IMG/VR virus record: IMGVR_UViG_3300045256_000282
Coordinates: 1 to 64,000 of that record
Strand: one strand, 5' to 3'
DNA: 64,000 nucleotides
From: a virus
Positions 4,658 through 38,239 of this stretch are shown here, in pieces; the first letter of the stretch is position 1; each line of letters opens with the position of its first letter. The notes under the pieces are model-generated. The model was not told where the DNA came from. It searched no databases and saw only the letters and a list, made by a program, of their open reading frames with translations. The position numbers and the translations under genes were made by a program.

Positions 4658-4688
4658 TTGCTATAGACTTTTGGAGGTCTTAAAAAAT

Positions 4689-6455
4689 ATGATTCGTAAA
4701 GTAAAGACAAGTCCTAAGATTTTCGTGTCGGACCAGACAAAACTTCAAGAGATCGTAGTATCTACAATGGAGCGTATCAGTGAGATAGTGGGTTCCACGT
4801 TTGGCCCAGGCGGAAGAAACGTTTTGATTGAGAGCGATTACCCTGGCATTCCAAACAAGAACACTAAGGACGGGGTCACCGTCTTTAAAGCCTTAGGGTC
4901 TTCTAACTCCTACGAGCACCTGATCATCGAGCAGGCCCGAGATTCTGCGCAAAGAACGGCTAGTGAAGCGGGAGATGGCACCACGACAGCGACCATCCTA
5001 TCTGCGGCTATGGTTCGCTATCTTTATGATTTTTGTAATAACAACCCACGATACAGCCCTCAAAAGGCTGCTCGCGAGATGTCTAAGATCGTCCGTGAAA
5101 AGCTGGTTCCAAAGATCCGGGAAAAAGCGATAAAGATTGATACCGAGAATCAGCATCTTCTCAAGATGGTCGCCAAGATATCTGCGAACGGGGATGAGGA
5201 CATGGCGACCGCTGTCATTAAAGCTTTTGAGCTTGTGGGTTACGGAGAGTCTTCACATGTGACGATCAAGGAACTTTCAGGTCCTTACGGATACGAGGTT
5301 GGTTTGATCGAAGGTTTTCCTATTCCTATCGGTTACGAAGAATCTATTGGCAAGTTTCACACGGCGTTTATTAACGATCAAGCAAACCAACGCTGCGCTT
5401 TGGATAAGCCTCTCTTTCTTCTTTACGATGGTCGGATGAACGACATCGTAATGTTTTCAAGACTTTTTGAAGAACTAGGAAAAGCTTACGTCGAAGAAGG
5501 AAAGTCAGAGTATAAGAATCTTGTCATTATTGCTCATGGGTTTAGCGATCACGTCTTGACGCAACTCGCATACAACTTCTCGAACCCTAACACCATGAAC
5601 ATCGTTCCGGTTGTCACTCCCATGGCGCAGTTCATCAACTCCCAATTACAATTTCTTATGGACGTGTCGGCTTTTACCGGAGCAAAGATCTTTGGGATGA
5701 AGGACAATGTTTCGGAGGCAACTCCAAATGACCTTGGGGCTAATATGGAGATGTTTGAATCTTATAGATTCAGAAGCACTATCGTAGGTAACCCTGACGA
5801 GATGAACGTAGAAGTTCGGGCGGATGAGCTTAAAAAACAAAAAGAACACGCCGAAAGCCAAGCAGAGCAGATCTGGATTGAGGAGCGTCTTGGCAAGATC
5901 ACTAACGGTATCGCAAAATTAACGATCTTTGGTGGATCTAACGGTGAGCTTAAGGAAGCGCACGATCGATGTGAGGATGCGGTTTGTGCGGTAAGAAGTG
6001 CGATCTCAAAGGGCGCTTTGCCTGGAGGATGCCGGGTATTGATTGACCTGGCGGTCGAGCTTGGAGAAACAGAGGCTAGTGAGGTTGTTCAAGAGATCAT
6101 AATCCCAGCCTTGTTTACACCGATCAACCGATTGCTGGAGAATGCTGGGTATACTAGTGACGAATCTATGGCGATCACAGAGAAGATGATTGAAAATCCA
6201 GACCTGGTATACGATGTAGAAAATCAAGTTTTTGGAAAAGCAGAAGAGCTTGGCGTATTTGACTCCGCCCCAGCGGTTGAAGAAGCTCTCAAAAACGCAG
6301 CCTCGATCGCAACGGTTATGGGAACTATTGGTGGTATGGTTGCATATCCTAGAGATGAAGCTTTTGAACGAAGTGAAGCAAAGGATGATGCGGCTTTTAA
6401 AAGAGCTGTAGATAGTCCAGAACAGTTTGTTAACGAGGCAGATCAGCGACCATAA
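4689..6455 (+). CDS. groL: Phage-encoded GroEL-like chaperonin
   Basis: Group I chaperonin of 588 aa. Equatorial motifs: GPGGRNVLIE (residues 39-48), KDGVTV (60-65), nucleotide-binding GDGTTTA (95-101). The C-terminal equatorial half shows ERLGKITNGIA, DRCEDAVCAVRSA (with the catalytic-Asp position of GroEL D398) and SAPAVEEALKNAASIA. The apical domain is divergent and the GGM-repeat tail is missing. The ATG at 4689 is chosen because the upstream in-frame TTG (4671) lies in the GGAGG Shine-Dalgarno site. Phage GroELs are known from phages EL and OBP and fold phage proteins; no GroES gene is seen here, so it may work without one. The TAATG overlap with the terminase gene links it to packaging genes. 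Confidence 0.93.
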   Translation: MIRKVKTSPKIFVSDQTKLQEIVVSTMERISEIVGSTFGPGGRNVLIESDYPGIPNKNTKDGVTVFKALGSSNSYEHLIIEQARDSAQRTASEAGDGTTTATILSAAMVRYLYDFCNNNPRYSPQKAAREMSKIVREKLVPKIREKAIKIDTENQHLLKMVAKISANGDEDMATAVIKAFELVGYGESSHVTIKELSGPYGYEVGLIEGFPIPIGYEESIGKFHTAFINDQANQRCALDKPLFLLYDGRMNDIVMFSRLFEELGKAYVEEGKSEYKNLVIIAHGFSDHVLTQLAYNFSNPNTMNIVPVVTPMAQFINSQLQFLMDVSAFTGAKIFGMKDNVSEATPNDLGANMEMFESYRFRSTIVGNPDEMNVEVRADELKKQKEHAESQAEQIWIEERLGKITNGIAKLTIFGGSNGELKEAHDRCEDAVCAVRSAISKGALPGGCRVLIDLAVELGETEASEVVQEIIIPALFTPINRLLENAGYTSDESMAITEKMIENPDLVYDVENQVFGKAEELGVFDSAPAVEEALKNAASIATVMGTIGGMVAYPRDEAFERSEAKDDAAFKRAVDSPEQFVNEADQRP

Positions 6456-23387: not shown

Positions 23388-24446
23388 ATGAGAAACCTAG
23401 TTTCAAGACCACACATCATTCTTTCGGTAGAAAATCCGGGTTACCCCGCATCTTCTCCCGTATCTCACGATGTGGCCGTTAAGAGTCTAGAAAAATTAGG
23501 TGGTGGCAAGGTTCATACGATCAAAGGGCATTACGGGAAGCCTGAGCAGAGTATCTTGATAAGCGATCCTAGTGACGAGCAGGCGCAGTTTGCAAGGCAC
23601 CTTGCCCACTCTACCGGGCAGGAATCCCACATAGAGAGTGACGGACATAGTCACAAGATGTATTTTAATAACGGACCTAAGGCTGGCTCTATCGTACATG
23701 GTCGCGGAACTAAGTGGCACTCAAAGGCACCAAAAGACTACTTCACCACCCTTCCGTCTGGGGAAACTTTTACTCATAACTTTGAGATGGAGAAGGCTGA
23801 AAAAACACCGGGCTCAGGTGTAAAGATTAATCCTCAGCATGGAGCACAGATTGCTCAGGCATATGAAAGCATGAAACATGACCCTTCTCATCCCGATGTT
23901 AAGGCGGCGTATGGGGCACTTATAAGCGAGACTAAGGATCAGTTCAAAAAGATCTTGGGTTCTGGATTTAAGATTTCTAAGATAAAACCAGGCCAGGCAA
24001 ACCCATACAAAACTTCTAAAGATATGCATCACGATATAGAACACAACAAGCATCTTTGGTATTTTCCAACAGAGGCTGGGTTTGGTTCTAGTGATCAATC
24101 AAGTTCTGATCATCCCATGCTTGCGCCTACGGAGTTTACACACGGAGATCACAAGCTTCTTGCTAATGACATGTTCAGGATAGTACATGACATAAATGGG
24201 CACCATCTGGGTGGAAAAAGTGGATTTGGTCCAAAGGGAGAGCATGAGGCATACCTTCATCACAAGACTATGTACTCACCTATGGCAGGGAAGGCTTTGG
24301 CTACCGAAACGATGGGACAAAATAATACAGTTAATTTTGGACGTCATGGTGAAAATAATCGTAAGAATCCTTCTAAAACGATATATGCTGATCAAAAAGC
24401 TGGACTTTTGCCTGATAACATCATAAACGGAGATTGGCACAAATGA
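23388..24446 (+). CDS. Polyvalent-type virion protein with HDxxGH motif
   Basis: 352 aa. The first 90 residues (GGKVHTIKGHYG, EQAQFARHLAHSTGQESHI, MYFNNG) resemble small domains found in polyvalent phage proteins. The C-terminal half holds FRIVHDINGHHLGG, GEHEAYLHHKTMYSP and ATETMGQN, a His/Glu-rich set conserved among unrelated phages and plausible as a metal site; no enzyme activity is known to me. It ends ATGA into the next gene and so heads a four-gene coupled cassette (23388-28529). Confidence 0.68.
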   Translation: MRNLVSRPHIILSVENPGYPASSPVSHDVAVKSLEKLGGGKVHTIKGHYGKPEQSILISDPSDEQAQFARHLAHSTGQESHIESDGHSHKMYFNNGPKAGSIVHGRGTKWHSKAPKDYFTTLPSGETFTHNFEMEKAEKTPGSGVKINPQHGAQIAQAYESMKHDPSHPDVKAAYGALISETKDQFKKILGSGFKISKIKPGQANPYKTSKDMHHDIEHNKHLWYFPTEAGFGSSDQSSSDHPMLAPTEFTHGDHKLLANDMFRIVHDINGHHLGGKSGFGPKGEHEAYLHHKTMYSPMAGKALATETMGQNNTVNFGRHGENNRKNPSKTIYADQKAGLLPDNIINGDWHK

Positions 24447-26878
24447 AACACCGTCATTACCGTAGGATGATGTCCGATTCCTTAAAAGAGATACAGGATC
24501 TTGATAAGGCAGATGTAAAAATCTCAGAAAAAGATTTTGTTGATGAGCATAAGAAGCTTTTAGATGTACTTGAACATCCTACTAAGAAAAAACTTAAAGA
24601 AGAGGCCAAAGATCAGGGTAAGGAACTTAAAGAAGAACTTGCTAAAGCCCCAATCGCATACCACGGCAGCACCGTTCCTTTTGAGGAACATGCGAAGCCT
24701 AAGAAGGACCCTAAGAGTCAACTTAACTATGGACCCGGCATATACTACGCTACGGACCCCGAAGAAGCTTCTAGTTACGCAGAGCCTCAGATTGCTAGGA
24801 TCAATGATCACTCTAGCGCACTTACTGAGGTTCAAAAAGAGCCCGGATATAGAGAATACCGCGACTCTGTTGCATCTAAGATGGGGTTGTCTAGCTCCGT
24901 AGATACGAAACATAAAAACTGGGATAAATTTGCAGATCATATGCTTTCTTACGACAAGCAGAAGATCAACGAAAAGCTTAAGCTTGCTCCAAACGTAAGG
25001 CGATCGGATGTTCAAGTTAATAAACCTTTTGATCCCTACAACAAGAAACACGCGCTAGCAGTCTATCAGGCACTAGGCATAGAACCAGACCACTTCAGGC
25101 TTGGTCAGGAGCATAAGGCCGGTTCCAACCTTTATGGACAGATCGCAAACCACGATAAGTTTGACAATCTAAAGTGGGGAGAAAAAACTCATAAAGTAAA
25201 TCAGGCAATAAAAAGAGCTGGGTTTGACGGTATCCACGACAAGAAGCTCGGGCACATTATCGCTTTTGACCCTAAGCAGATCAAGCCAGCATATGGTGCT
25301 GCTAAAAAACCTAAGAAGCTTGCCGCATCTGAGCTTGAGAAGTCTAAAAACGTTCGCGAACAGCGAAAGAAGGTGTTCGGTACTGACGCGAATGCTCCTA
25401 GAACGTCTGAGAAGCGCATGAAGATGATGCAGATGATTAGACAATACGCTCAAAAGAAGTACGGCCTTCCTCTTGTAACAGCTTCTGGTAAGAGAGATGA
25501 GTCCGGTAAGCTTAAGGAGCAAAAAGGAATTGAGGGTCAGCCTTACGACGTATTTACTCCTAAAGGCGTGGCTCAAGAAAAGAAGCGCCTGGCTCAGATT
25601 AAAGAAAAAGGAACCAAGCGAGTAGATCCAAAACCTGACTGGCGTTCTGGTCAGCTTGAGACTCAGCCGTCTCCAGATGCTGCCGTACACGAGCTTTCAC
25701 ATCTTGACCTTGCTCCAGAGGGTATGACGGCTCCAAAATTTCAAACTGAGATGGATCGTCTTTGGGGAGATTCTCAAAGCAAATACGGTCATATGCAGCA
25801 AAAGAAGACTCGCGGTGAAATTCAGCCGATGTCTATCGAAAATCCAATACGAAGAGAAATGGGCCTACCCGCTAATAAGCAAACAAAACCAGTTACTGCT
25901 AACCAGTCAGTTCTTGATGACCCTACTGGAAAAGAAAAACGTTTTGTTGAAGGTAAAGATGCTAACGGCAAAAAAGCTTTTTACGATCGTCAATCTAGGC
26001 TTCAAAATCAAGATACTAAAGACAGACGACAGCAGATTCAAGAAGGAAGCTTAAAATTTCATCCTGAAAAGGGATGGCAACAAGCTTCGGACACCAATGC
26101 CCTTATTAATTTGAGGGGTAGAGGTTTGAAGGAAGAGGCTGCAAACAGACTTAAGGCAAGGCTTGGATTTCAGTCCCAACCAAAGAAGTTGGCGGCAAGT
26201 GAAGATTTAAAAAAAGAACAGTGGGAAAGAAAAAGAACAGGATCTTCTCTTAACCCTTTGCACGGCGTAATATCGCCGGAAGGAAAGTTTTATCCTATGA
26301 ATGCAGATGAGATGCATTCTAACAAGATAATTCAAGCAAGTCTCCCTCCTTACGCCAAGGTTAGCTATACGCCTGGCGAGCTTGAAAACGAAGTAAACAA
26401 AAAGATGGGCGAAGGATGGATTTCTGTTGGAACCGCTGGGGAACCTAGCTTCATCGGACACTCTTCTGTATTAAGCAACCCAAGACATCCCGCCACCGCC
26501 GCACTTAGGGGTCTTATTCGTGAAGCTCAAAATGATCCAAAAAACACCGCTGGTTTTTGGACTGGTCATGTTGAAGTTTCTCATAGTGACAAGAAGCCCA
26601 TCAAGGGTGCAGAAACTCTTGAGCACGCCCCTCATGTGGGTTATGTAAGTGCTGATCACTTTGTCAGGCACGGCACGTTTAAGCCACACAAAGATTTGGG
26701 ACGATCCGAAATTGAAAAAAGCTGGTCGGCAAAGCTTGCAGCGAAATACAAGGCCCAAAGACCTCAAACTCCTCAAGAAATTAAAGAATCAAAAGAAAAA
26801 CACAAGAAGGCAATGGAAGCTGCACTGGCTGCTATAGACAAGATCAAAAAGCCAACTAAGCCTGGAGGTCAGAAATGA
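24443..26878 (+). CDS. Polyvalent protein: ADP-ribosyltransferase-like plus HExxH metallopeptidase-like
   Basis: 811 aa. After a Lys-rich helical N-terminus, residues about 70-275 look like the ADP-ribosyltransferase fold of polyvalent proteins: AYHGSTVPF (His74), NYGPGIYYATDPEEASSYA (Tyr101/102), and the closing GFDGIHD...HIIAFDPKQIK. The middle holds AAVHELSHLDLAPEG, an HExxH zinc motif at residues 416-420 as in MPTase-PolyVal domains. A third globular region (about 625-760) is not recognised. ATG at 24443 is chosen over TTG 24434 because of the ATGA overlap. Known for such proteins: packaged and injected to modify host targets. Inference: same here. Confidence 0.78.
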   Translation: MKHRHYRRMMSDSLKEIQDLDKADVKISEKDFVDEHKKLLDVLEHPTKKKLKEEAKDQGKELKEELAKAPIAYHGSTVPFEEHAKPKKDPKSQLNYGPGIYYATDPEEASSYAEPQIARINDHSSALTEVQKEPGYREYRDSVASKMGLSSSVDTKHKNWDKFADHMLSYDKQKINEKLKLAPNVRRSDVQVNKPFDPYNKKHALAVYQALGIEPDHFRLGQEHKAGSNLYGQIANHDKFDNLKWGEKTHKVNQAIKRAGFDGIHDKKLGHIIAFDPKQIKPAYGAAKKPKKLAASELEKSKNVREQRKKVFGTDANAPRTSEKRMKMMQMIRQYAQKKYGLPLVTASGKRDESGKLKEQKGIEGQPYDVFTPKGVAQEKKRLAQIKEKGTKRVDPKPDWRSGQLETQPSPDAAVHELSHLDLAPEGMTAPKFQTEMDRLWGDSQSKYGHMQQKKTRGEIQPMSIENPIRREMGLPANKQTKPVTANQSVLDDPTGKEKRFVEGKDANGKKAFYDRQSRLQNQDTKDRRQQIQEGSLKFHPEKGWQQASDTNALINLRGRGLKEEAANRLKARLGFQSQPKKLAASEDLKKEQWERKRTGSSLNPLHGVISPEGKFYPMNADEMHSNKIIQASLPPYAKVSYTPGELENEVNKKMGEGWISVGTAGEPSFIGHSSVLSNPRHPATAALRGLIREAQNDPKNTAGFWTGHVEVSHSDKKPIKGAETLEHAPHVGYVSADHFVRHGTFKPHKDLGRSEIEKSWSAKLAAKYKAQRPQTPQEIKESKEKHKKAMEAALAAIDKIKKPTKPGGQK

Positions 26879-30733: not shown

Positions 30734-31642
30734 ATGAAGATCACAGCTTCTGCAGAACAGTTCCTTTCTAAGGCGCTGGGCCAAGATGGCCTAGATGCAC
30801 TGCAGAAGTCTGAGCTTTTTAAGCTAAAGGCCAATAAGGTCGTTCCTATAGACGAGATCAAGACTGCTATGCAGATCGTACCTCGGACTGTAATCACACT
30901 ACTCCACAAAGAACTTGGCGCGATGAAGATCGGTGAAGGCAAGGACGTAGTTCTTCCAGTTCAACCAGAAGCCATCTTACATGTAACCAAATACGACAAC
31001 GACGTTTATAGCGGGGATATCCATAGACCTGGAAACGTTATGGCTAAGTTTCAAGATCGATCACTCCCTGGCGTTGGTTTGATCATCATGTCTACTTTTG
31101 AGCTTTACGATGTATCAGACCTAGCATCGGCAGCTCCAAGCTCCGTGCCTAGCTTAGAAGAGGCTAACGTTCAAAAGATCATTGATGAAAGAATGGGCCT
31201 ACGAGATCTTGTAAGACAAGTAGTTGACCAAAGAATTACGGAAAGAGAAGCGATTGACAGCATCATAAGGATGAGGTTAACTCAAGCTATGGCCGAAGCT
31301 ACTCAAAAAAAAACAGAAAAGCCTGAAGAGGCACCTATGGAATCTAAAAAACCTACGAGTAAGCTTAAAGAGTTTATTGAACGAAGAGCTAGGAAAGCTC
31401 CTAAAGAATTTCAGATCAGCATGGCTAAGAACGAAACCGTTGTATGTGAAGATTGTAAAAAAGAGATCTTCACCAAAGGCGCGTTCTCTGGCTGCATCTG
31501 CTATGGTGACGATCGAAACAACAAGATCTTCATTACTAAGAATGAGAACGGATTTACTATGCGGTTTCCTCGTAGTTGGGATGTGGAAAACGTCCAGATG
31601 CTTTTGGAAACTTTGCGAGATAAGAACAGGGGTTCCAAATGA
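30734..31642 (+). CDS. Virion-region protein with C-terminal zinc ribbon
   Basis: 302 aa. Helical N-terminus with LQKSELFKLK, a middle domain (VTKYDNDVYSGDIHRPGNVMAKF), a charged helical linker, then CEDCKKEIFTKGAFSGCICYG near residue 236, a four-cysteine ribbon. Not assigned to a family. Coupled by ATGA to the palm-domain protein that follows. Confidence 0.7.
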   Translation: MKITASAEQFLSKALGQDGLDALQKSELFKLKANKVVPIDEIKTAMQIVPRTVITLLHKELGAMKIGEGKDVVLPVQPEAILHVTKYDNDVYSGDIHRPGNVMAKFQDRSLPGVGLIIMSTFELYDVSDLASAAPSSVPSLEEANVQKIIDERMGLRDLVRQVVDQRITEREAIDSIIRMRLTQAMAEATQKKTEKPEEAPMESKKPTSKLKEFIERRARKAPKEFQISMAKNETVVCEDCKKEIFTKGAFSGCICYGDDRNNKIFITKNENGFTMRFPRSWDVENVQMLLETLRDKNRGSK

Positions 31643-33114
31643 ACAGATTATTCGTAGCTTTTGATGGCGATAATATGGGCTCACAAGTTGGTCAGGCTGT
31701 CCTTATGGACGATGCTCAACAACTTCACGAGATCTCTCGTCGAATTGATAGCGCTGGACGAGCGATACAGGATTGGGTGGAATCTAACGGAGGCCAGATG
31801 GTCTCGGTTGGTGGGGATGAAGGAACTTTTGTTATCGATCCTTCTATGGAAGAACATCTTGAGGAGTTGAGAGGAGTTTACCAACAGATCAGTGGTGGTA
31901 CCGTAACGTTTGGCGTAGGATACTCTCTAAGTCAAGCCGGTAAGGCTTTGATGGCTGGAAAACTTATGGGAAAAGATATTCTGGTTAGGTATGACGACCA
32001 GGTAGACCACATCCTTTCTGATGCGCATGATCAGGTTCAAACTGGTGGTGGAAGTCCCGAAGCTCAGAAACAAGATGAGCATTATCTTAGCCACGTTGTG
32101 CTAGGCGATGCTGGAAACGGCGAAGAGGATGTTAGCCAAGAATCTGCTGATGAATACGACATGGCTCCAACCTCTAATTCTCCAGATGACCAAGAAATTA
32201 CTCCTGAAGGCGCTGCTGCCGCACAAGAGATGGTAGATGACGCAGCAAATTCAGAAGGCTGCAATTGTCCTGCTTGCCAAGAGCGCCATGCTATGGAGGC
32301 TCAGGGTCAGGGGCCGGAAGAAGAAGCAACTGAGGGTTGCGATTGTCCTGCTTGCCAAGAGCGTCATGCTATGGAGAGTGGTGCTGAAGAGCCTATGCCA
32401 GAGATGGCTACTCAGAATGAAGAAGATCTTCCAGAACAAGACTCTATGCAGATGATTCCAGATGCTCAAGCTGAGGGTTCGGACCTTCCTCCTATGCAGA
32501 TGCCAGAATCTCAAGAAGATCCTCAAAGCGCTATGGGAGAAATGGGCGAAGAAGATGCTATCGAGATTCCAGAGAACGAGTCTTTAGACGAGCAAAAAGA
32601 TCCAGAAGAGATGGTTGCTGCCGCAGTAGGGCCTAATGAAGATCCTGAGCAAGAGGGCGCTGTTCCTGAAGAAAACATGTCAGAAGACGGCTTTCCAGGC
32701 GCAATTCCTGGTGAAGGTGAAGAACCCGTAAATCAAGAAGATCTAGAAGAGATGCAAGATCCTTCAAACGAACAGATGCCTCCCCAACAAGACATGGGAG
32801 CCATGGGTGAATCCCAGGAACAACCTGGGGACCTAGACCTATTGTCCGAACTTTTATCAGATGCAGGATCTACTGATGAGCTTAAACAAAGAATTGCAGC
32901 TATACTTGAAAAGTTTAAAGCGAACAGGGATTCAATCATCTCGATGAAAGATCAGAACCCCGAGATGTACCAATCGATCATACTCATGCTTAAGCAGATG
33001 ATCGACATGGCGAGACATCTAGCCCCATCATCGCCAGAGGAAGATATGCCTCAAGATGAGCAGTCTGTTCCAGAGGAAGCTTCTCAGGAGGAAGCACCTC
33101 TCCCAAAACAGTAG
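31639..33114 (+). CDS. GGDEF/Cas10-like palm-domain protein with long acidic tail
   Basis: 491 aa in the zero frame. Residues 1-125 form a compact palm: LFVAFDGDNMG (Asp9, Asp11), a long helix, GGQMVSVGGDEGTFVI (GGDE 58-61), VTFGVGYSLSQAGKAL, then AGKLMGKDILVRYD. The D-x-D strand followed by a GGDE hairpin and a Lys-containing GKD strand is the layout of GGDEF and minimal Cas10-like (mCpol) nucleotidyl cyclases. The rest is acidic, with a 78-bp duplication encoding CNCPACQERHAME/CDCPACQERHAME (32254-32376). The gene ends at a -1 frameshift site. A catalytic role is inferred only. Confidence 0.75.
   Translation: MNRLFVAFDGDNMGSQVGQAVLMDDAQQLHEISRRIDSAGRAIQDWVESNGGQMVSVGGDEGTFVIDPSMEEHLEELRGVYQQISGGTVTFGVGYSLSQAGKALMAGKLMGKDILVRYDDQVDHILSDAHDQVQTGGGSPEAQKQDEHYLSHVVLGDAGNGEEDVSQESADEYDMAPTSNSPDDQEITPEGAAAAQEMVDDAANSEGCNCPACQERHAMEAQGQGPEEEATEGCDCPACQERHAMESGAEEPMPEMATQNEEDLPEQDSMQMIPDAQAEGSDLPPMQMPESQEDPQSAMGEMGEEDAIEIPENESLDEQKDPEEMVAAAVGPNEDPEQEGAVPEENMSEDGFPGAIPGEGEEPVNQEDLEEMQDPSNEQMPPQQDMGAMGESQEQPGDLDLLSELLSDAGSTDELKQRIAAILEKFKANRDSIISMKDQNPEMYQSIILMLKQMIDMARHLAPSSPEEDMPQDEQSVPEEASQEEAPLPKQ
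32254..32376 (+). repeat. Tandem repeat encoding a CxCPACQERHAME metal-knuckle-like motif
   Basis: Two copies of about 45 bp, nearly identical and in frame with a 78-bp period, give EGCNCPACQERHAME and EGCDCPACQERHAME. Cys-x-Cys-x-x-Cys plus His could bind zinc. Confidence 0.8.
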
Positions 33115-33146
33115 GGTCGGTAGAAAAAGGCGGGAAACTGCCGACC
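33102..33146 (+). other. Programmed -1 ribosomal frameshift signal
   Basis: Slippery heptamer C_CCA_AAA (33102-33108) in the correct register, 3 nt before the zero-frame stop TAG (33112-33114). Spacer of 6 nt (33109-33114), then a hairpin: GGTCGGTAG (33115-33123) pairs with CTGCCGACC (33138-33146), 9 bp with one G-U. The -1 frame stays open for 68 codons and its TAA overlaps the next gene's ATG at 33314 (TAATG). Confidence 0.88.
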
Positions 33147-33314
33147 AAGCAAACAACTCGCCACGTAGCAAGAACTAGACAACCCGAAGGTGCTATTAAC
33201 CGTAAGGGTTTTGAAAAAGTCATCGATAACGAGACTGGCAAAACTAGATGGGTAGATCGTAAGAAGCCTGTTGCCCTTGACCTACAGGGCGATCCTACTC
33301 ACGAGAGATTCTAA
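33108..33314 (+). CDS. -1 frameshift extension of the palm-domain protein
   Basis: Frame without any ATG, GTG or TTG start of its own that lies outside the upstream gene, so it can be reached only by the -1 shift at 33102-33108. It adds 68 residues (TVGSVEKGGKLPTK, then RQPEGAINRKGFEKVIDNE and KKPVALDLQGDPTHERF), giving a 558-aa product. The extension is basic while the upstream tail is acidic. It fills what would otherwise be a 200-bp gap. Confidence 0.82.
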   Translation, partial: TVGSVEKGGKLPTKQTTRHVARTRQPEGAINRKGFEKVIDNETGKTRWVDRKKPVALDLQGDPTHERF

Positions 33315-34066
33315 TGAACCTTAAGTTTTTTGTTAACGCAGATGATATAGCCAACGAGATGAAGGCTTTTAAAGAAGAGGCTAAGCAGGCGATAGAAGAG
33401 TCTGTTAAGCAACTATCTGCGATGACGCACGCTAAGGTTGTTGAGCTTGCACAAGAAAAGTTAAAAAGTACACGCAAGATCTATACCGACAATTTGGATT
33501 ATCAAGAGCTTGTCCCAGGCTTGTGGGTTGTTAGTTTAGATCAGCCAGCGTTGTGGATCGAAGAAGGCCGTAAATCTGGGGACATGACACAAGACCTGCT
33601 CAAGACTGGCGCTCACATAGCTAAAGATGGAAGTCGATATAAGGCGATTCCTTTTGATCACGGTAAGCCTCCATCTCAGATGGACCCCTTCAGCAGAAAC
33701 TTGGTGGCAAAGATCAAGTCTGAGCTTAAGAAAGCAAACATACCCTTTAAGAAGCTTGAGCTTAACGCAGATGGAAGTCCGAGGATAGGTCGGCTTCATA
33801 CCATGAACATCTCTAGTCCTCACCCAAGCTCGAGGGCTAGTCATCCGGCACTTTCTGGTTTGACCATATATCAAACAAAAGGTGCAAATGGCAAGGTTCG
33901 TCGCGATATAATGACCTTTAGAATGGTAAGCGATAAACATAAAGGCTCTAAGTGGATTCATCCTGGAAGAGACGCCGAGGGCTTCTTTGAAAAAGCTTTA
34001 CAGTGGGCCGAAGATCAGTGGGAAAGAGAGATCCTACCTCAGATCATGGCGAGGTTTGACAAATGA
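33314..34066 (+). CDS. Tail completion protein, HK97 gp10-like
   Basis: 250 aa. ALWIEEGRKSGDM, AKDGSRYKAIPFDHG, and the C-terminal MVSDKHKGSKWIHPG followed by FFEKALQWAEDQWEREI are the landmarks of the gp10-like neck/tail completion family (WxHPG motif near the end). Such proteins join the finished tail to the head. The start overlaps the stop of the frameshift product (TAATG) and the end overlaps the next gene (ATGA). Confidence 0.78.
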   Translation: MNLKFFVNADDIANEMKAFKEEAKQAIEESVKQLSAMTHAKVVELAQEKLKSTRKIYTDNLDYQELVPGLWVVSLDQPALWIEEGRKSGDMTQDLLKTGAHIAKDGSRYKAIPFDHGKPPSQMDPFSRNLVAKIKSELKKANIPFKKLELNADGSPRIGRLHTMNISSPHPSSRASHPALSGLTIYQTKGANGKVRRDIMTFRMVSDKHKGSKWIHPGRDAEGFFEKALQWAEDQWEREILPQIMARFDK

Positions 34067-35052
34067 TATTTGCTGGCGATGTCATCATCAAAGCGGCTAT
34101 AGAGCAAGGTCTTGAAGACATGCGAAAAAACGTGTGGCTTTTAGATGACGTTCTTTCTCAGTTTGTAAAAGAAGAGTCTTTAAAGAACAAGTATGGCCAA
34201 AAAGAGATTGATGCCGCCAAAGAATGGTTCTTGAACAACAACATTTCTGTCTATCTGCAACATCGTATTGATAAGGACCAGCTTCCTGCCGTCATCATTG
34301 GTCTTGGATACTCGAATGAGTTAGATGAGATGAAGCATATGGGAGACCTATCTACCGAGGTAGAAACCCTGATGCCCTCTCAGATCGGAAAACCAATACC
34401 CTACGTCGTTAAGCCCTTCACCCCTACTTCGTACGACGATTCTGAAGGTACCGTAGGATTTCCAAAAGAACTAAATATCCAGCCAATCGCTCCTGGCATG
34501 ATTCTTGTCGATCCAGATACAGGGAATGGCTATGAGATTAAGGCCATACTGCCTGGAAGAAAGATCCAGATCGAGCCTAACTTAGACTTAGATTCTACTA
34601 GGTTGGCTGTTGTTCCTAAATATCAGTTTTATAGGGTTAGAAGAGAACACAGCTTTTTTGCTGAAAGTTACACGATCGGTTGCCACGTCCATGGGGATGT
34701 TGCCCCCCTTCTTTGGCTCCATGCGATAGTGGCATACATTCTTCTACGTTATCGAGAAAGCCTACTTGAAGGCAGATGCTTTAGCCAAAGCAAGATCTCA
34801 AGCTCCGACCTTATGCCAAACCAGGATATGAACGTCCCTGGAGGGGAAAACGTGTATTCAAGGTATATAACCCTTACGGGTCAGGTGGAGAACTCGTGGT
34901 TAAAAACCCCTAAAAGGGTTATCGAGTCTGCGATTTTGGAAAATGAGCCGGACAAAGAAGAGGGTTTTAAGGGTGGAATCAAGATCATAAGCCAACAAGC
35001 CCCTGATTTTTTAGACTCTGAAGAAGAGCCCTGGACCACAATCGATGAGTAA
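34063..35052 (+). CDS. Neck/tail terminator-region protein
   Basis: 329 aa, not firmly recognised. N-terminal helical third (FAGDVIIKAAIEQGLEDMRKNVWLLDDVLSQF), QLPAVIIGLGYSNE (the P-x-I-I-x-L strand common in tail terminators), a barrel about 150-210 (NIQPIAPGMILVDPDTGNGYEIKAI), and a helical segment DVAPLLWLHAIVAYILLRYRESL. Gene order (after gp10-like, before sheath) supports a tail-tip or terminator role. Confidence 0.68.
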   Translation: MIFAGDVIIKAAIEQGLEDMRKNVWLLDDVLSQFVKEESLKNKYGQKEIDAAKEWFLNNNISVYLQHRIDKDQLPAVIIGLGYSNELDEMKHMGDLSTEVETLMPSQIGKPIPYVVKPFTPTSYDDSEGTVGFPKELNIQPIAPGMILVDPDTGNGYEIKAILPGRKIQIEPNLDLDSTRLAVVPKYQFYRVRREHSFFAESYTIGCHVHGDVAPLLWLHAIVAYILLRYRESLLEGRCFSQSKISSSDLMPNQDMNVPGGENVYSRYITLTGQVENSWLKTPKRVIESAILENEPDKEEGFKGGIKIISQQAPDFLDSEEEPWTTIDE

Positions 35053-36085: not shown

Positions 36086-38239
36086 ATGGCACAACGACTA
36101 ACTACCTCGTTTATCAACACGGTAATTCCTGGAGCTTATCCGAATGTTTCGGTTAAGTCTGTACCAGTAGGCGTAGCAAGCACTGGGGTAATCGCGATCA
36201 TCGGCGAAGCAGCCGGTGGAGCTGATTTCTCAAGCGAAGATATCAAGAACAACTTTTTTACTCCCGATCAAGCTGATCGCGTAGCTGCTAAGTATGTTTC
36301 TGGACCTATCGTCGATGCTATGCGAGCCCTCGCAGCACCGTCTGCGGACGCAAACATTGCTGGATCTGCAACCCGTATCTTTATCGTCAAAACAAACGCT
36401 GGCGACAAGGCTTCGGCGATTGTTGATACAGATTTTGGATCTCTTTCTGCTAAGAACTTTGGTATCGGTGGAAACCAGATCAAGTACAAGATCGTAGCTA
36501 GCCAGCTTGAAGATACTCCTGAAACGACCTCTTCGGTTGCCATCCCTGCTTTCGGGGCTGCGCTGGATGGCTTGAGCTTCTCGATCAGATTAAACGGTGG
36601 AGCTGTCAGTGTTGTAACTTTAAGCAACACCCCTGCTAACCACTCTAACATCGCGACTCTTGTCACTGAACTGGCTGGACTCCTTCCTTCTGGAATCTCA
36701 GCGAGTGCTGGTACTGCGGCAAATACACTTAAGTTAAAAATCGACACGGACAGCGCTAACTATCGCAAAGGCTGGGGAAAAAGCTTTGAGCTTATCGACT
36801 CTACGCCTGGCGATTTAGATCTGGTTAAACTTGCTCCTGGCTTGTTTAGCAGTGCTTCTGAGTCTGCTGTTGAGATTAACGTAGTTCGTCAAGATGCTGG
36901 ATTAAACGAAACTCTTGAAGCAAAGGGTGAAGTTGCCCTCCAAGTGGGTTATTTGGGCACTACAGCTACCCTGACTATTGCTGGAAGCACGCTTTCAACG
37001 GTGGTTACTGGTGGAGCTGGCGCAGCTCTGAGCGTAGACCTAAGCTCTTTCAGTACGGTTGCAGATCTTGCAGCTTTCATCGCAAGCAAGCCAGGCTACT
37101 CGGCATCTGCCTCAGCTTTGGCTCAGCAGATGAAACCTGCTGACCTTGATAGGGTTTCGGCTATTGGTATCTGCTCTAGCGGAGCTGGACTCAAGGCTGG
37201 ACGAGTTAAAAAATCTCTTGCAAACGTTAAAGCCGCCATCGCAACAAGCGCTGCTGTTGACCTAGAGCCAACCGCTACGGCTGGTCTTCCTTCTCCGATT
37301 TCAAGCTTCAGCTTCTTGTCGGGTGGAGCAAAAGGTAGTACTAGCGGTGCAGATATCGTAGACGCCTTAGGTAAGCTTGAAGCTGTTGTGGTGAACTTCA
37401 TTGTTCCTCTTTTCAGCCAAGACGCTTCTGACGATATTGCTGAAGGTTTGACCGACTCAGCTTCTACTTATACGATCGACGCAATTCACGCTGCTGTTAA
37501 ATCGCATGTATTGAAGATGAGCGTTCCTAGCTTGAAGCGCTACCGTTTGGCAGTACTTTCTTACTTCGGTTCTTATGCAAACGCTAAGACCAAGGCTCAA
37601 ACTCTGGCTAATTATCGATGCAGCATGACTTTCCAAAAAGTCAGCGAAGTTGATAGTCAAGGGTCTGTTGTTGAGTTTCAACCTTGGATGGGAGCTTGTT
37701 TGGCTGCAGGAATGCAGGCTGCTGGTTTCTACAAAGGAATCACTAACAAGTTTGCAAACTTGATCAGCTTTAAAGATCCTAGCGGATTTGACAGCGGAAG
37801 TCCTGGTGACGTGGAAGACGCGTTACTTGCTGGCTTACTCATCCTTCAGCGCGAAACGGCTGGAAGTAAATGGGTATCTGACCAAACGACGTATGGTTTT
37901 GATACTAACTTCGTTTACAACAGTTTGCAGGCAACATACCTTGCAGATATCGTAGCGGCTGACTTGGCAGATTCGTTGCAAAGAGCTTTCGTTGGTCAAT
38001 CATTGGCTGACGTCGACGCTGCAACGGCTTTGGCTTTTATCGCTACTAAGATGGAAGAGTATCGTCGAATCAAAGCTATTACTGGCGATGATGAGGCACC
38101 TCTTGGATACCGTAACGCTAAGGTCAAGATTTCTGGACCAACCATGTCGGTTGCTATTGAAATTAAGCTAAGCACAACGATCTACTTCATCCCGATCGAA
38201 CTGACGATCTCTCAAGTTCAGTCATCGGCTAGTCAGTAA
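36086..38239 (+). CDS. Contractile tail sheath protein
   Basis: 717 aa. N-terminus VIPGAYPNVSVKSVPVGVASTGVIAIIGEAAGG and C-terminus YRNAKVKISGPTMSVAIEIKLSTTIYFIPIELTISQ are the two ends that interlock sheath subunits in myophages (handshake strands). The central 250 residues are a Ser/Ala/Thr-rich surface insertion domain. Optimised codons and a GGGAG site fit very high expression. With the tube gene following, it proves a contractile tail. Confidence 0.93.
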   Translation: MAQRLTTSFINTVIPGAYPNVSVKSVPVGVASTGVIAIIGEAAGGADFSSEDIKNNFFTPDQADRVAAKYVSGPIVDAMRALAAPSADANIAGSATRIFIVKTNAGDKASAIVDTDFGSLSAKNFGIGGNQIKYKIVASQLEDTPETTSSVAIPAFGAALDGLSFSIRLNGGAVSVVTLSNTPANHSNIATLVTELAGLLPSGISASAGTAANTLKLKIDTDSANYRKGWGKSFELIDSTPGDLDLVKLAPGLFSSASESAVEINVVRQDAGLNETLEAKGEVALQVGYLGTTATLTIAGSTLSTVVTGGAGAALSVDLSSFSTVADLAAFIASKPGYSASASALAQQMKPADLDRVSAIGICSSGAGLKAGRVKKSLANVKAAIATSAAVDLEPTATAGLPSPISSFSFLSGGAKGSTSGADIVDALGKLEAVVVNFIVPLFSQDASDDIAEGLTDSASTYTIDAIHAAVKSHVLKMSVPSLKRYRLAVLSYFGSYANAKTKAQTLANYRCSMTFQKVSEVDSQGSVVEFQPWMGACLAAGMQAAGFYKGITNKFANLISFKDPSGFDSGSPGDVEDALLAGLLILQRETAGSKWVSDQTTYGFDTNFVYNSLQATYLADIVAADLADSLQRAFVGQSLADVDAATALAFIATKMEEYRRIKAITGDDEAPLGYRNAKVKISGPTMSVAIEIKLSTTIYFIPIELTISQVQSSASQ

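Follow-up and report, generated by a model that had tools for sequence, protein, structure and literature searches.

We describe a phage gene that places an mCpol nucleotide-cyclase domain at the N-terminus of a virion-module protein. The gene lies in a 64,000-nucleotide stretch (the window, to whose positions all coordinates refer) of the virus record IMGVR_UViG_3300045256_000282, the full length of which is 149,068 bases. From the sequence comparisons below we lean towards an active site that would be functional in the window phage. Large contractile-tailed phages of one family have the gene at a fixed place in their virion module, and the active-site residues are intact in the window phage and in about three-quarters of its relatives. 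Bacteria and archaea carry mCpol in defence loci, in which its product is an inhibitory messenger (PMC12657218, PMC12657230). The closest known relative of the phage domain is OptS of the Panoptes system, which was absent from the initial annotation of this DNA. These findings suggest that a phage may itself produce or detect an immune signal.

The domain belongs to the Panoptes-OptS/Cas10-palm family and is of the mCpol type rather than the GGDEF type. The initial annotation had noticed three motifs in the right order, all of which are present (FDGDNMG at residues 8-14, with D9 and D11; GGDE at 58-61; GKD at 111-113), and from them had proposed a fold of GGDEF/mCpol type; the mCpol half of that proposal stands and the GGDEF half falls. 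The Pfam mCpol model (PF18182) matches residues 5-118 over all 114 model positions, with 59.3 bits against a cut-off of 26.4, so the domain is not a product of chance; a chance motif match is rejected by the fold and the conservation as well. The Pfam GGDEF model (PF00990) reaches 12.3 bits (E 0.15), below its cut-off of 23.8, and we rejected a GGDEF diguanylate cyclase on this score. The Cas10-Cmr2 palm2 model (PF22335) matches weakly, with 28.5 bits for the domain alone (cut-off 27) and 24.7 for the whole protein. Solved Panoptes mCpol proteins are recovered by phmmer (9nwn, E 5e-7; 9mnr, E 8e-7), and all 20 family domains tested match Pfam mCpol at E ≤ 0.01.

Structure prediction returned the palm fold that the initial annotation had expected. 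The AlphaFold2 model of the domain (19 family sequences) has a predicted local distance difference test score (pLDDT) of 96.3; its strands and helices follow a palm-like order, and Foldseek matches it to OptS, Cas10 palm and GGDEF domains. The top solved structures are Panoptes OptS proteins (Z 18.1-18.8, root mean square deviation 1.6-2.0 Å, 118-119 residues), followed by Cas10 palms (Z ∼13.8) and by Y-family polymerases and GGDEF domains (∼13). Among viral predicted structures (BFVD) the top match is A0A6J5L1I5, an uncharacterized phage protein of 365 amino acids (TM 0.89, 20% identity).

Panoptes OptS/mCpol (KpOptS, 9mnr and 9pd0; ECOR31 mCpol, 9nwn) shares with the window domain the PF18182 family, the fold (Z 18.8, 1.6 Å, 118 residues), 25% identity, both catalytic aspartates and the equivalents of K105, K109 and S30. 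In contrast to OptS, the phage domain is fused to an acidic, helical and frameshifted tail in a virion module, has no effector gene alongside, and reads GGDE where OptS has AADG at the hairpin. Cas10 is a large multi-domain protein with two palm domains, encoded in a type III locus. The phage protein shares the palm fold and a weak family match with Cas10/Cmr2, but we rejected Cas10 proper because the protein has a single 125-residue palm in a virion gene neighbourhood, with no other Cas10 domains and no Cas partners nearby. The fold and the GGDE motif are shared with GGDEF diguanylate cyclases too, but the window domain is shorter.

Conservation across the family is concentrated on the active site and on glycines. 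We compared 46 non-redundant phage domains, collapsed at 95% identity, with partial domains (for example those of loci L028, L033, L035 and L104) and the L013 domain dropped. Their mean pairwise identity is 41%, and nine of the 125 window positions are invariant in all 46: D11, D60, K108, K112, G14, G52, G92, G94 and the leucine L104. Eight of the nine are identical in KpOptS, the exception being G52. Window residues D9, D60, K108, K112 and S33 map to KpOptS D6, D57, K105, K109 and S30, respectively, and position 33, a base contact in KpOptS, is Ser or Thr in all phage domains. KpOptS D6 and D57 hold metals, and Asp-to-Asn replacement of either abolished cyclic dinucleotide production (PMC12657218), as did D57A in the second Panoptes paper (PMC12657230). 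The window phage keeps both metal-binding aspartates, as initially annotated. Of the three aspartates then singled out for a conservation check, Asp11 and Asp60 are invariant and Asp9 is only partly conserved, being Asp in 34 domains and Asn in 12. The tree is compatible with a single origin of the Asn state, with weak support (52/58). On the strength of the KpOptS D6 and D57 mutants, we predict little or no activity for the Asn clade, none for the domain of phage Mx1 (see below), and competence for that of the window phage.

The gene occupies a fixed place. Relatives were collected as 28 viral loci found by the downstream gene, 80 found by the terminator gene (contigs partly shared) and five found by domain search. 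The conserved order is g29283 homologue, (g30269), homologue of the upstream neighbour g30734, mCpol gene, homologue of the downstream neighbour g33314, terminator (PF23932), sheath and tube; L012 is without a g33314 homologue, and in L030 and L032 this gene is inverted. Homologues of g30734 and the terminator occur together in 51 distinct loci, and 49 of these have the mCpol domain, always between the two. In the remaining loci, L071 and L074, the gene starts at the same place and keeps the helical hairpin and extension described below, with CxxC repeats in place of the domain. These substituting repeats are zinc-knuckle-like (L071:3773-5212 and L074:3890-5218). The Pfam model finds one mCpol copy in each of 11 long records, above the cut-off in 10, and a single copy in the window's own record. 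An mCpol domain is thus nearly universal in this protein of the phage family, with an active site strongly constrained in most members.

Among named relatives, the mCpol gene is present only in Myxococcus phage Mx1, which has a contractile tail and a genome of 169,621 bp (PMC10720576). Its syntenic protein WNM70340.1, annotated as hypothetical, carries the extension in frame and a domain that is degenerate yet still recognized (Pfam E 0.00046, below the cut-off; tblastn from L024, E 1e-5). Searches for the domain by tblastn in 50,697 phage records, by single sequences and DNA patterns in viral contigs, by two scans of genome contigs, and with the L012 and KpOptS domains in phage records gave no match. 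A plasmid search with the latter two domains gave one weak match, the annotated mCpol of Sulfitobacter.

Two loci have unusual versions of the gene, and a third encodes mCpol within a different protein. L014, L016 and L017 are ∼97-100% identical to L015 on both flanks, and the first ∼90 codons of the L015 mCpol gene are a divergent version that still has D9, D11, D60 and E61. Directly before this exchanged N-terminus lies an inserted open reading frame (ORF) of 307 codons (L015:305-1228), which we take to be HNH-like from a motif, Pfam having given no hit. The exchange has the appearance of intronless homing with the mCpol gene as its target; we rejected an immune arms race as its cause because such homing by the inserted ORF explains it equally well. 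In L104 (3501-4778) a stop inside the domain breaks the gene, which is either a pseudogene or an assembly error. L013 (7691-13669) encodes a phage protein of 1992 amino acids with DNA ligase, mCpol (E 1.1e-18), full GGDEF (E 9.9e-31), primase, sigma-70-like and LigD phosphoesterase parts, and with repeated HKEAQIGK segments that resemble cleavage sites.

The 3′ end of the gene has the textbook signals of a predicted −1 ribosomal frameshift: an in-phase heptamer, a short spacer, a structure and a conserved extension. These signals predict two protein forms, of 491 and 558 amino acids. In the window, positions 33060 to 33311 form an open −1 frame, into which ribosomes would slip at CCCAAAA just before the zero-frame stop; the stop codon of the extension itself (33312-33314) shares bases with the start ATG of the following gene. 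The window hairpin follows the heptamer after a 6-nucleotide spacer and folds with −16.7 kcal/mol (z −4.51). We folded 17 distinct junctions, leaving out L032, which has no clear hairpin; the stem starts 5-6 nucleotides past the heptamer in all 17, and z is −2 or lower in 12. In their alignment 71.2% of cells pair. The covariation score is 0.337, compared with 0.174 after shuffling (none of 500 shuffles reached it), and it drops to 0.178 or less when the partner is shifted by 1-3 columns.

The signal is widespread in the family. Among 46 distinct split junctions, a set that still includes close relatives, 43 are in the −1 frame and three (L068, L069 and L115) are in the +1 frame without a heptamer. 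All 43 of the −1 junctions have an in-phase heptamer (CCCAAA[A/G] or AAAAAAG in 40), and those of L032 and L084 fold only weakly. The +1-frame extensions of L068, L069 and L115 lie near a CCCCACAGC stretch, possibly a +1 frameshift in place of the −1 signal. The extension is fused in frame in 21 loci (some being the same contig twice), and L079 is without it. A heptamer with a long −1 extension ends 16 of 16 mCpol genes and 8 of 355 other ORFs in 17 loci; this control used loci in which the heptamer was already known, so that it measures specificity and not discovery. The ORF list holds no ATG-, GTG- or TTG-started ORF of at least 50 amino acids in the −1 frame at the extension, and separate initiation is therefore unlikely. 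We rejected a separate ORF because of the missing start codon, the hairpin covariation and the in-frame fusions elsewhere.

The frameshifted tail assembly chaperone G/GT of phage lambda is encoded between the tail tube and tape measure genes. In lambda G/GT, T7 gene 10 and the A2 capsid, a −1 slip in a morphogenesis gene likewise adds a C-terminal extension (PMC5009743). The phage mCpol gene lies elsewhere, upstream of the terminator, sheath and tube-like genes. The conserved −1 frameshift before terminator and sheath is therefore at a site other than the familiar tail-chaperone one.

The rest of the gene and its surroundings (Table 1) agree with the initial annotation, which had placed it among virion genes and had recognized a long acidic tail, a Cys-knuckle repeat and a frameshift extension. 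Family matches to a portal and a major head protein lie upstream in the window, and matches to the PF23932 terminator, sheath and a tube-like protein lie downstream. The mCpol gene overlaps its upstream neighbour by 4 nucleotides (ATGA, 31639-31642). The tail is 26% Asp and Glu and 4% Lys and Arg, and it contains two Cys-knuckle units. The helical hairpin matches its own hidden Markov model (HMM) with E 4.7e-25, the window sequence being one row of that HMM. In L030 the hairpin is predicted with pLDDT mostly 88-97, and the AlphaFold model of the naturally fused L030 C-terminus confidently shows a helical hairpin and, within the extension, a small beta-hairpin, much of the remainder being at low confidence. 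No other occurrence of the hairpin and extension was found in the first set of loci, marginal hits aside. A conserved stretch, EEID.PA...DGDYGSEEM..AQP.HE..M.EEEEFIHDA.ENR.DELD, recurs in the acidic tails of L030 and L032 and also of L036 and L037.

Table 1. The mCpol gene, its parts and its neighbours in the window
Feature	Position	Strand	Evidence
Zero-frame product, 491 amino acids: mCpol domain, acidic tail, Cys knuckles, helical hairpin	31639..33114	+	
mCpol (Cas10 palm) domain, residues 1-125	31639..32013	+	Pfam E 6.1e-16, phmmer, AlphaFold2, Foldseek
Low-complexity acidic tail	32014..32856	+	Composition; acidic too in compared family members
Cys-knuckle unit 1 CNCPACQERHAME, residues 208-220	32260..32298	+	Sequence reading
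Cys-knuckle unit 2 CDCPACQERHAME, residues 234-246	32338..32376	+	Sequence reading
Family-conserved helical hairpin domain	32857..33045	+	Own HMM; AlphaFold2 of L030 version
Slippery heptamer C_CCA_AAA, −1 frameshift	33102..33108	+	
Stimulatory hairpin, 9-bp stem 33115-33123 with 33138-33146, 6 nucleotides past heptamer	33115..33146	+	
−1 frame extension (PKTVGSVEKGG...THERF)	33102..33314	+	In-frame fusion of the segment in other lineages
Upstream neighbour, 302 amino acids, Cys-rich motif in C-terminal part	30734..31642	+	Syntenic conservation
Downstream neighbour, PHROG 16819 (no assigned function)	33314..34066	+	Syntenic conservation
Terminator-like protein, PF23932 SP10_terminator	34063..35052	+	Pfam E 9.8e-9
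Tail sheath	36086..38239	+	PHROG 279, E 7e-32

The phage gene stands apart from any recognizable effector. A Panoptes system is recognized by an adjacent OptE/2TM-beta (or CARF/SAVED) effector gene; the flanks here are conserved virion-module genes, and none of the flanking genes in the window has a Pfam effector match. PADLOC, run on 143 of the 147 ORFs of the record (four across stretch borders were dropped), returned 21 families with partly interpretable names, none of which we recognized as an mCpol partner; the Pfam scan of the same ORFs shows 25 of 39 families, and an Acb1-like or other gene may be among the rest. PF18153 (Cap15_CD_rec) matched none of 12 genomes, and the same model matched no control either. 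According to a section that covers prokaryotic genomes only (PMC12657218, section 12), CARF, SAVED and HEPN proteins are further partners of mCpol genes. In the library searched for literature on mCpol/Panoptes, the minimal CRISPR polymerase and anti-Panoptes, we recognized no paper on a phage-encoded mCpol, judging by titles and the openings of abstracts except for the two Panoptes papers.

The most likely explanation is that a cyclase domain, predicted to be competent or at least nucleotide-binding, has been grafted onto a late virion or morphogenesis protein. Late expression is suggested by the virion module and the overlap with the upstream gene, and the acidic linker, helical hairpin and basic extension would link the protein with the particle or with its assembly. 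The mCpol part would bind nucleoside triphosphates (NTPs), and in lineages with both aspartates it would join two NTPs in a small cyclic nucleotide. We consider it reasonably probable that the domain is competent to bind or cyclize NTPs. If it is, a purpose against Panoptes or the cyclic oligonucleotide-based antiphage signalling system (CBASS) is a tentative proposal. Our best guess is that a decoy or antidote cyclic nucleotide supplied by the phage would silence Panoptes-like (or mCpol-CARF/SAVED) effectors, since the antitoxin half of Panoptes is mCpol on its own and no effector gene stands beside the phage mCpol. mCpol alone suppresses 2TM-beta toxicity (PMC12657230), so a phage bringing its own mCpol could hold such effectors off. 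The full scenario, in which the phage delivers with its particle an active mCpol whose decoy cyclic dinucleotide holds Panoptes-type effectors off, is unlikely. If true, the phage would counter the defence by providing an immune messenger, the opposite of what the known sponges and phosphodiesterases do, and lineages that have lost either the catalytic Asp or all of the domain would infect hosts lacking the effector.

A number of observations weigh against an active counter-defence enzyme. Asn at position 9, found in 12 of the 46 domains, is the change that alone abolished the KpOptS product. Position 37, equivalent to the base contact N34 of KpOptS, is not conserved among phage domains, so the product is not predictable. 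The Mx1 remnant is without both aspartates and lysines, from which it follows that the fold can persist without catalysis, and Mx1 is the only relative with a known host. The two lineages that lost the domain speak against a general enzymatic role. Expression from a late gene would leave little time for counter-defence, except in the case of an injected protein. An Acb2/Tad1 sponge was found in none of the 12 phage records searched (the T4 positive control matched), and there is thus no sign that these phages trip Panoptes as T4 does.

Several of these points would suit a pseudo-enzyme, a captured mCpol fold that now serves as a dimerizing or NTP-sensing module of a virion or assembly protein, its catalysis vestigial or lost. 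The first Asp has become Asn in 12 domains that keep the fold, D60 and both lysines, the Mx1 domain is degenerate yet recognizable, and 49 of 51 loci hold the domain at a fixed virion-module place. However, the invariant positions are mostly active-site residues or glycines common to KpOptS, both catalytic aspartates are kept in 34 of 46 domains, and the two lineages without the domain retain the rest of the gene. Such loss, in two of 51 loci, is more in keeping with an accessory enzyme than with a structural core. We favour an enzyme over a purely structural role because invariance falls on the active site and the domain-less lineages keep the remaining gene, and we hold a pseudo-enzyme to be somewhat doubtful. 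An active cyclase might instead act on host physiology, its cyclic dinucleotide altering metabolism, motility or lysis timing, or activate a host effector late in infection. The active-site evidence serves this possibility equally, mCpol has the CARF, SAVED and HEPN partners already cited, and the L013 protein joins mCpol to a true GGDEF domain. Nevertheless it has no known target, receptor or host and leaves the fusion to an assembly protein unexplained, and we regard it as quite improbable. The segment exchange in L015 beside an inserted HNH-like ORF could point to a mobile or exchanged hitchhiker without selected function, but with nine positions unchanged at a mean identity of 41%, and with the domain in 49 of 51 loci, this is the least credible account, and we disfavour it. 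For an enzyme making immune messengers, the natural Asp-to-Asn, degenerate and domain-less lineages form a comparative set in which messenger production by phages can be tested.

Two other genes in the window deserve mention. Positions 24434-26878 encode a protein of 814 amino acids with a weak ART-PolyVal (ADP-ribosyltransferase) match (E 2.8e-5, below the curated cut-off), which is possibly injected. A GroEL-like chaperonin (PHROG E 3e-86) is encoded at 4671-6455 and adjoins the terminase gene.

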